Of a stretch of DNA of 64,000 bases, positions 21,201 to 24,200 are shown in pieces. The stretch is from the NCBI RefSeq assembly GCF_000003815.2, contig NC_049989.1, positions 7,938,672-8,002,671 on the forward strand, in the 5' to 3' direction. Position numbers and translations under genes: made by a program. Below the pieces are notes generated by a model. That model made no database searches and was not told where the DNA came from. It was given only the letters and a program-made list of their open reading frames with translations. This stretch comes from Branchiostoma floridae. Lineage: Eukaryota; Chordata; Leptocardii; Amphioxiformes; Branchiostomatidae. The first letter of the stretch is position 1, and each line of letters begins with the position of its first letter.

Positions 21201-24200
21201 CTACTGGTTTGTTGCGTCTTCAGGAAGCATGATCTCTTCGACGATGATCCTAGACACGGAGTTCCAGCCGGTGTAGGCGTTGCCGCTGTTGGAGATGCCC
21301 TTACAGTTGCGCACAGAGAACTCCACGTTGATTTTGCCTTTAGGGAGGCCGCTGCAGATGCCCTCAACTAGGAGGAAATAAGTTGGTTTAGGAATATACT
21401 AATAAACTTAGTTGATATTTTCAAAAGATAATTCTATAAGCAACTATGGTTGTGGCATACATGTATCTTCCTTTCAAATAGCAGTAACGAAATCTAATAT
21501 GCATCATTCCTGGTTGAATTAGTACAGCCAGAGTTTATGTAAAGGATTCGAGGTTTTCGATGTTACTTTTAACCTATGTTATAACCTATAGAACGCTTTG
21601 ACTCGCTTTTCATTTCATATCAACGAAGCAGACAGGTGCTGATCGCCATGATGGTGCCTTTTGCATTTCAATGGATCAAATCTCAACTGTTTCCATTGTA
21701 GTGCTTCATCGAAAGACTTTTACGTGTTGTTCTTGTATCCCTTCTATGATGAGCTGTCGACATTGACATATATAGATCTTTGTTTAAAACGCTTCTGCTA
21801 TGATTCATCGAAATGCAAATATAAACACCAATATGTTGACGAACACTGTGGTTACTTCACGTCTAAACGTTTTTTTTAGTAGAACAATATGTACAAGTGT
21901 CAGACAAGCCAAGGGAGCAAAGGAGTGGCCTGAGGGAGCAGGGAGCTAGGGAGGGGAGGACTCACTGGAGGAAACCCGATGAATGTTCAACCCGTACATC
22001 CCGTTGTTCGCATTCGTGTAGACCAGTCCCTCGATGGGCAGCGGCCCCGAACACTCCATCCCGTTGAAGGTGAAGTACCACCGCTTGCAGCAGCCACTGG
22101 TTGACGTCACCCGGAGCGCTCCGTTCCACACGACACGGAGAGAGGAGTTGGTGAACCGTTTGGAAAACGGGCATTCCTAGAGGGGGGTTAAGATATATAA
22201 GAGCGCAGGTAGAAGTCAGAGAAGCTGGCTGGGAGGCAGCGGGGCAGGGGCGGATAGTTGGGCGGCGTGTGCAGCCAACTTACTGCGAGTCACTCTGTGG
22301 ATGTTGAGGGCCACGAGCTCTTCGCTGGGTTTAACGTAAACAATCCCATCTATGGGTGCGGGGTCGGCACATTCTGCCCCGTTGAAGGTGAAATACCAAC
22401 GTTTACATGCTCCGGAATGTGACGTCACCCTTAAGGGCCCGTCCCACAAGACCCGTAGTTCGGAAGATTTCCGCTGTTTGGTGAAATCACAGACCTGGGG
22501 ACACCAGCCAAATTGGCCAATGACAGAGGAGAGGCGCACGGGAACCCTTCCTCTGTCTTAGCCATGCATACTATCGACAACATGCAGCAAGACATGGAAG
22601 CTACTTATACGTTATAACACAGAATTTTACACATTTTTGATTGACGTGCATAGTATACATCAATCAAATGTCGATTGAGGTGAACTATGCATCAACACCA
22701 TAGACGAAATGTCATCAGAAATGCTTTTCAAAGTAAAGTTTTTGTTCCTATTGATAAAAAAATAGAACTGTATATACCTAATTTCTGTAATTGTCCATAT
22801 CATATTTTCTTTGGGGTACCTAACGTACTTTTTCCTATTATTTGAAATATGAATGAATGTTCCTAAAATTGATTTGGGTACCTTGATCTTTCCGTGGTCT
22901 TCATCGAAGTTGAGGTTCCGCCAGGCGCACTGTTTGATGTTACTGCCAAGCAGCATCGCCCCACTTCCAGAGTCCCCCTTGTCTCCCTTCGTCCCTGGCC
23001 TACCGGGTCTGCCCGGAAGCCCCCGGTCTCCCTTGTCGCCATCCTTCCCACCGATCCCTGGCGTTCCAGGGATGCCATTGCTTCCGGGAACGCCATTGGT
23101 CCCGGGCATACCCGGTGGGCCCTGAACACAGCACCCGTTTGCCAGACATTTTTGCTAATAGTTGGAAGACATTGGACAATGTTACACAAGTATCTCCGTT
23201 AATAATGCACACACTCTAATAAAGATGATGTTGCTAAGACTTTGGATTTGGCTATTTGAACATATAACGTACATTTCCAATTTGCTAACAAATATTACAC
23301 TACTGCATAAACTGGAATTCGGTTGAATATTGTTGCAAAAACAATGTACATTACAATACACGATTTGCAAAGCTTTATCTAATCTTAGAACGCTGAAATC
23401 GCCATACTGAATTAGTTCCAAGAGTGATGCAAAGTGAGAGCTTCATGCAAAACAAAACAACAAGAATATTTCTGGCTAGCTAAAGATCATTTAAACAATT
23501 TCGTACAAGCGTACCGCGAGGACAAGTCTATATACAACACTTAGGGTACAAAAACGCATAACGCTGAAATCGCCATACTGAATTAGTTCCAAGAGTGATG
23601 CAAAGTGAGAGCTTCATGCAAAACAAAACAACAAGAATATTTCTGGCTAGCTAAAGATCATTTAAACAATTTCGTACAAGCGTACCGCGAGGACAAGTCT
23701 ATATACAACACTTAGGGTACAAAAACGCATAACGCTGAAATCGCCATGCTGAATTAGTTCCAAGAGTGATGCAAAGTGAGAGCTTCATGCAAAACAAAAC
23801 AACAAGAATATTTCTGGCTAGCTAAAGATCATTTAAACAATTTCGTACAAGCGTACCGCGAGGACAAGTCTATATACAACACTTAGGGTACAAAAACGCA
23901 TAACGCTGAAATCGCCATGCTGAATTAGTTCCAAGAGTGATGCAAAGTGAGAGCTTCATGCAAAACAAAACAACAAGAATATTTCTGGCTAGCTAAAGAT
24001 CATTTAAACAATTTCGTACAAGCGTACCGCGAGGACAAGTCTATATACAACACTTAGGGTACAAAAACGCATATCTTATTAATTATATATAGACAGTGGC
24101 AAAGGCAGGCAACATCTACGAGCCGTTTGTTGTGAAATGGTGTAGCATAAACCGACTTTTTGACGGAGCCATTGCATGCTGGGGGACGCGAGCACTATGG

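Follow-up and report, generated by a model that had tools for sequence, protein, structure and literature searches.

A putative mutually exclusive exon pair in the C-terminal domain of a CTHRC1-like gene of amphioxus

Can a single CTHRC1-like gene of the amphioxus Branchiostoma floridae supply two versions of its globular domain by choosing between two neighbouring exons? The question is raised by a 64,000-nucleotide stretch of contig NC_049989.1 (positions 7,938,672 to 8,002,671, forward strand), which was analysed as a whole and is called the window here, all coordinates being counted from its first letter. Proteins of the CTHRC1 family carry a hydrophobic N-terminus, a short collagen repeat and a C1q-like C-terminal domain, CTHRC1_C, and an intron on the 5' side of that domain is conserved in the metazoans checked, Ciona excepted (PMC7058181). 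The same study describes tandem paralogues, with up to 12 copies in cephalochordates and several copies also in cnidarians, priapulids, phoronids, brachiopods, echinoderms and hemichordates, as well as an alternative 5' exon of CTHRC1 in catarrhine primates. CTHRC1 has been linked to Wnt/PCP and TGF-beta signalling and to cancer, its action in Wnt/PCP being disputed (PMC7058181).

Between positions 12390 and 51083 the window contains four CTHRC1-like genes, two on the minus strand (A and B) and two on the plus strand (C and D) (Table 1). Gene B reads as a five-exon gene, and its coding sequence is open and encodes 273 aa with either of two alternative fourth exons, 4a and 4b. The assembled coding sequence starts with a hydrophobic N-terminus resembling that of gene D; the first exons of the two genes are 81% identical over 32 aa (tblastn), of which the last 3 lie beyond the chosen donor, and the corresponding figure for the first exon of gene C is 40%. 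No significant counterpart of exon 2 was found elsewhere within the 64-kb window. Both isoforms match Pfam Collagen (32.8 and 32.9 bits; cut-off 27.2) and CTHRC1_C (PF25815; 176.4 bits for the 4a form and 174.9 for the 4b form; cut-off 27). In all four genes the exon 3/4 junction lies 20 residues past the start of the NIK..C motif, and both boundaries of exon 4 are alike. Gene B shares with the CTHRC1 family a hydrophobic N-terminus, the collagen repeat, the CTHRC1_C domain, an intron at the 5' side of that domain and the presence of tandem paralogues (PMC7058181), and adds to these a duplicated exon. By analogy with the family, its protein is predicted to be secreted and to form trimers. Solved structures searched with the 4b form gave 45 distinct sequences (E up to 1), most of them collagen repeats and none noticed under the name CTHRC1; over the C-terminal part the best match was a weak one (E 0.003) to a Toll-like receptor 1 construct. 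The collagen part of gene A is split by an extra intron (14354-14467 and 13834-13977, minus strand) that is absent in B, C and D.

Table 1. Positions in the window of the CTHRC1-like genes, the exons of gene B and associated elements.
Feature	Position	Strand	Description
Gene A	12390..14467	-	Model comprises collagen part, exon 4 and exon 5; single exon 4, 202 nt
Gene B exon 5	21201..21367	-	Rest of C-terminal domain and stop codon
Gene B exon 4b	21966..22176	-	211 nt; canonical C-terminal domain core
Gene B 4a-4b intron	22177..22283	-	107 nt; branch-point match CTGAC at 22215-22219
Gene B exon 4a	22284..22494	-	211 nt, 70 codons plus 1 nt; putative alternative C-terminal domain core
Two TGCATG motifs	22563..22586	-	18 nt apart; 68 and 86 nt upstream of exon 4a
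Gene B exon 3	22882..23154	-	273 nt; collagen repeats and first residues of C-terminal domain; Pfam Collagen
Gene B exon 2	25560..25643	-	84 nt, phase 0/0; combination yielding an open coding sequence
Gene B exon 1	30377..30463	-	87 nt, ends in phase 0; start codon and hydrophobic N-terminus
Gene C	36666..40314	+	Single exon 4 at 39567-39777, 211 nt
Gene D	44687..51083	+	Single exon 4 at 50345-50555, 211 nt

The initial annotation had described two stop-free exons of 211 nt, both entering in phase 0 and leaving in phase 1 and lying 107 nt apart, and our analysis reproduced these features and their coordinates exactly. The splice sites, which had been called good, are so by rank: among the 439 GTs and 392 AGs on the minus strand between 20000 and 27000, scored by a matrix of approximate consensus frequencies, the donor and acceptor of 4a ranked 17th and 11th and those of 4b 5th and 4th, placing all four within the top 4% and giving 4b the higher scores. 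Comparison of 4a with 4b by tblastn gave E = 3e-27, far beyond chance, so that one gene does hold a homologous pair of exons for the core of its globular domain, as had been proposed. A second exon 4 is unique to gene B among the four genes of the window, and searches of the introns of A, C and D detected neither a significant second exon 4 nor a relic of one. No similarity was detected at E 0.1 between the introns flanking 4a and those flanking 4b that would mark a trace of the duplication.

The reading that we favour, with a probability of roughly 0.77, is that 4a and 4b form a functional mutually exclusive pair derived from an old tandem exon duplication in one gene of the CTHRC1-like cluster. 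Each mature transcript would include one of the two exons, yielding two secreted, trimer-forming proteins of 273 aa that would share the signal peptide, the collagen repeats and the last part of the globular domain and differ over about half of the C1q-like domain. That both exons are used, that they exclude each other and that the choice between them is regulated is what we infer from the sequence.

The pair could in principle be an artefact of misassembly, to which paralogue clusters are prone, or of a wrong gene model, for instance if two alleles or two genes had been collapsed. A run of exactly 100 Ns, resembling an assembly gap, does lie inside gene B, in intron 1 (27504-27603). The part that matters here, with 4a, 4b, one exon 3 and one exon 5, falls within a single N-free stretch (23154-21201), and the two exons differ at 90 of 210 codon bases, too many for alleles. 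We regard this explanation as extremely improbable. A second 100-base N run of the same appearance is present at 52853-52952.

We then considered whether 4a is under selection. In protein sequence, 4b matches exon 4 of gene C (C4) at 89% identity and that of gene D (D4) at 84%, whereas the identity of 4a to 4b, C4 and D4 ranges from 57 to 60% and that to exon 4 of gene A (A4) is 49%, which identifies 4b as the ordinary exon and 4a as the one that has departed. Scored singly against CTHRC1_C, a profile whose members could include gene B, the exons gave 77.5 bits (4a), 76.9 (4b), 78.0 (C4), 79.8 (D4) and 70.7 (A4). Exon 4a fits the family profile as well as 4b does, and has thus moved away from its neighbours and not from the family. 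The differences between 4a and 4b fall at 26, 19 and 45 of 70 first, second and third codon positions, respectively, with pS at 0.79, near saturation, and dN at 0.41. The near-saturated synonymous sites, set beside a family-profile score equal to that of 4b, indicate that 4a is an old and probably selected alternative and not debris.

Further comparisons were made with the other fourth exons. Among the sites at which 4b, C4 and D4 carry the same base, 4a departs from them at 22 of 38 third positions versus 32 of the 121 remaining sites (p = 0.0007); when A4 is required to agree as well, the counts are 7 of 19 versus 20 of 93, which is not significant (p = 0.24). Among the codons identical in A4, 4b, C4 and D4 and changed in 4a, 4 changes are synonymous and 2 are not. 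Two simulations let 4b drift without constraint until it had reached the same DNA identity; the frame stayed open in 1314 and 1510 of 20000 runs, and an open frame together with an equally high protein identity was obtained in 0 of 20000 runs each time.

These results bear on the opposing explanation that 4a is a dead or dying copy, once used and now skipped, with only 4b spliced in. Its lower donor and acceptor scores, its loss of a sequon and a cysteine (see below) and two possible repressor sites upstream are what such a copy might display; it also differs at 20 of the 57 positions common to 4b, C4 and D4, and it may be changing faster, with 9 unique changes in 4a versus 2 in 4b when A4 serves as the outgroup, a difference that is not significant (p = 0.065). 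We nevertheless consider a dead copy unlikely, given that 4a equals 4b in family-profile score and has kept an open frame and both splice sites intact despite near-saturated synonymous divergence. Stops had arisen in 92 to 93% of the simulated long-unused copies, an argument that does not reach a copy silenced recently.

If 4a and 4b are a functional pair, as we favour, their two products would differ at several residues. Exon 4a keeps 30 of the 37 residues that are invariant in A4, 4b, C4 and D4, the seven changes being N10S, N18D, C29A, L51I, T54V, N58E and G59E (exon residue numbers). The 4b protein has a single N-X-S/T sequon over its whole length of 273 residues, located at N10 of exon 4, and the 4a protein contains none in 273; from the NIK motif onward, C and D each have one sequon and A has two. 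Over the same region the cysteines number 7 in the 4b form, 6 in the 4a form, 7 in C, 8 in D and 7 in A, and the 4a form is without one cysteine of a CC pair. The 4a protein would accordingly be expected, from these residues, to carry no N-glycan and to form a different set of disulfides. Exon 4b would thus provide the family-standard head, and 4a a head devoid of the only N-glycan sequon and of one CC-pair cysteine, which would probably alter the sugar on its surface, the disulfide pattern or the binding of partners.

The closeness of 4b to the exons of the neighbouring genes has a further aspect. Positions 22020..22107 of 4b (minus strand) and 39636-39723 of C4 (plus strand) share 88 identical consecutive bases, a length reached in 0 of 5000 codon shuffles; the longest identical runs between 4b and D4 and between C4 and D4 are both 51 bases (p = 0.0004 and p = 0.008, respectively). 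At fourfold sites with the residue unchanged, agreement in exon 4 compared with that in exons 3 and 5 together is 24 of 34 versus 19 of 53 for B and C (p = 0.002), 25 of 33 versus 21 of 52 for C and D (p = 0.002), and 18 of 31 versus 24 of 54 for B and D (p = 0.26). No identical run of 20 nt is shared by 4a with 4b, C4 or D4. These patterns suggest that the exon 4 core of B (as 4b), C and D may have been homogenised by gene conversion, most clearly between B and C, with 4a spared. Exon 5 counts against a conversion of exon 4, having identical runs of 36 (B/C), 26 (B/D) and 33 (C/D) bases and being as alike between B and D as exon 4 is (80% each); alternatively, the likeness of exon 4 could come from strong constraint on synonymous sites. 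B and C are inverted paralogues about 17 kb apart.

Because conversion is possible, the closeness of 4b to C4 and D4 is no proof that 4a predates the split of the genes. An attempt to date the duplication from a five-exon tree was set aside: bootstraps ranged from 35 to 64, the DNA and protein trees disagreed, and such dating is unsafe where 4b, C4 and D4 may be converted. Searches for relatives with which to root the tree gave 49 pattern matches in prokaryote genome contigs and 59 in viral contigs, of which 0 were confirmed in either set.

A fuller version of the favoured reading joins these two strands. Exclusive splicing would toggle the trimer head between a glycosylated state with an odd number of domain cysteines (4b, seven) and an unglycosylated state with an even number (4a, six), perhaps with mixed trimers, and conversion would keep the 4b-type exon alike across the paralogues as 4a escapes and diverges. 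We put this forward only tentatively, and hold it to be doubtful as a whole.

It had been argued in the initial annotation that use of both exons would shift the frame, so that one transcript can use only one. The first half of this holds: either exon alone joins exon 3 to exon 5 in frame, and the two together do not. The second half does not follow, as a shifted frame ruins the product and leaves the spliceosome unaffected, so that double inclusion would be pointless but still possible. It would add 71 shifted residues before a stop 2 nt beyond the junction with exon 5; if 4a and 4b were both skipped, the frame would likewise shift, and the stop would lie 226 nt beyond the exon 5 junction. 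Nonsense-mediated decay follows a rule that depends on exon junctions. With the stop only 2 nt past the last coding junction, classical nonsense-mediated decay would probably miss double inclusion; provided that exon 5 is the last exon and the 3'UTR has no intron, transcripts of both kinds would probably escape exon-junction-dependent decay.

A further reading is that the two exons are alternative without being exclusive, so that single-4a, single-4b and double-inclusion transcripts would coexist and the last would encode a truncated protein with a 4a core, perhaps regulatory. The 107-nt intron looks spliceable, with a GTAAGT donor, a CTGAC 68 nt away and a good acceptor; the stop of the double product may evade decay, as noted; and an amphioxus Fgfr isoform carries exons IIIx and IIIc together (PMC5703972). 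The double product would, however, lose exon 5, where a highly conserved stretch of the domain (GWNSVSR) lies, and with its shifted residues it is unlikely to fold. We judge this arrangement to be quite improbable.

As to how exclusion could be imposed on a functional 4a/4b pair, two candidate mechanisms were checked, and neither found support. Steric hindrance across the short intron was one of these: the criterion used in PMC5740500 is a branch point under 50 nt from the donor, and the branch-point matches in the 107-nt intron lie 68, 86 and 96 nt from it. OGDH exons 4a and 4b (PMC7969005) resemble the pair in gene B as a duplicated pair separated by an intron of limited size, but in OGDH it is branch points close to the 5' splice site that impose exclusion, at variance with the distances found here. 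The other was docking/selector pairing among the three introns, for which the duplex energies were equalled in 23, 60 and 40 of 100 shuffles. In the favoured reading the choice would instead depend on how the stronger 4b competes with 4a, which is weaker and may be repressed.

A lead for such repression is the pair of TGCATG motifs upstream of exon 4a (Table 1). At least two copies of the motif occurred in 50 of 5000 shuffles of the intron between exons 3 and 4a (1%), a figure uncorrected for the roughly six kinds of motif examined. None was present in the six introns between exons 3 and 4 and between exons 4 and 5 of genes A, C and D, or in the other two introns of gene B after exon 3. We take TGCATG to be a binding site for Fox splicing factors, which tend to repress an exon when they bind upstream of it. 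The two motifs are thus possible sites for a Fox-type regulator of 4a, and repression of 4a from upstream sites would make 4b the default. Five further TGCATG are found in intron 2 of gene B, four of them inside a tandem array upstream of exon 3 (23389-24073; four 171-bp units, 99% matching), where they lie on the minus strand spaced 171 nt apart. Upstream of exon 3 of gene D, three TGCATG occur within 40 nt (49392-49431, plus strand).

Mutually exclusive exons that arose by tandem duplication are well known as a class (PMC9013439, PMC5740500), and the pair in gene B would belong with them. The initial annotation knew of no such regulation in this family, and none was found for CTHRC1 in the portions of the literature covered by our search. 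The main text of Leclere et al. 2020 (PMC7058181), in the part covered, mentions no duplicated exon in the C-terminal domain, with "splic" occurring 0 times and "exon" twice. Within similar bounds, the literature on mutually exclusive exons and C1q yielded no such pair in a C1q-like domain.

Several known systems are instructive by comparison. A survey of human clusters found an exon length not divisible by three in 377 (60%) of them (PMC5740500), and the frame-restricted human pairs are, like 4a and 4b, tandem homologous exons of such length. In cephalochordate G-alpha genes (PMC5896119), a single internal exon is duplicated in one gene, as in gene B, albeit in another family. Amphioxus Fgfr, again from another family, has two versions of a functional region, IIIb and IIIc (PMC5703972), comparable to the two versions proposed for gene B. 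The choice in Fgfr was tested by RT-PCR and minigenes; the pair in gene B, which also differs from the human frame-restricted pairs in that the stop upon double inclusion lies in the last coding exon, is a prediction from sequence.

If the favoured reading is true, gene B would offer a natural pair of heads that differ in their only glycan site and in a cysteine, a ready-made comparison with which the binding partners of the head, and the way in which the trimer is held, could be mapped. It would also represent diversification at the level of an exon inside a cluster that otherwise diversifies through whole-gene duplication, and perhaps a case in which gene conversion hits one copy of an exon and spares the copy next to it.

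Elsewhere in the window, a Pfam scan of 6 of the 22 other open frames of at least 110 aa gave one match, a reverse transcriptase fragment at 56010-56351 (minus strand; RVT_1, 30.6 bits) that represents the remnant of a retroelement.
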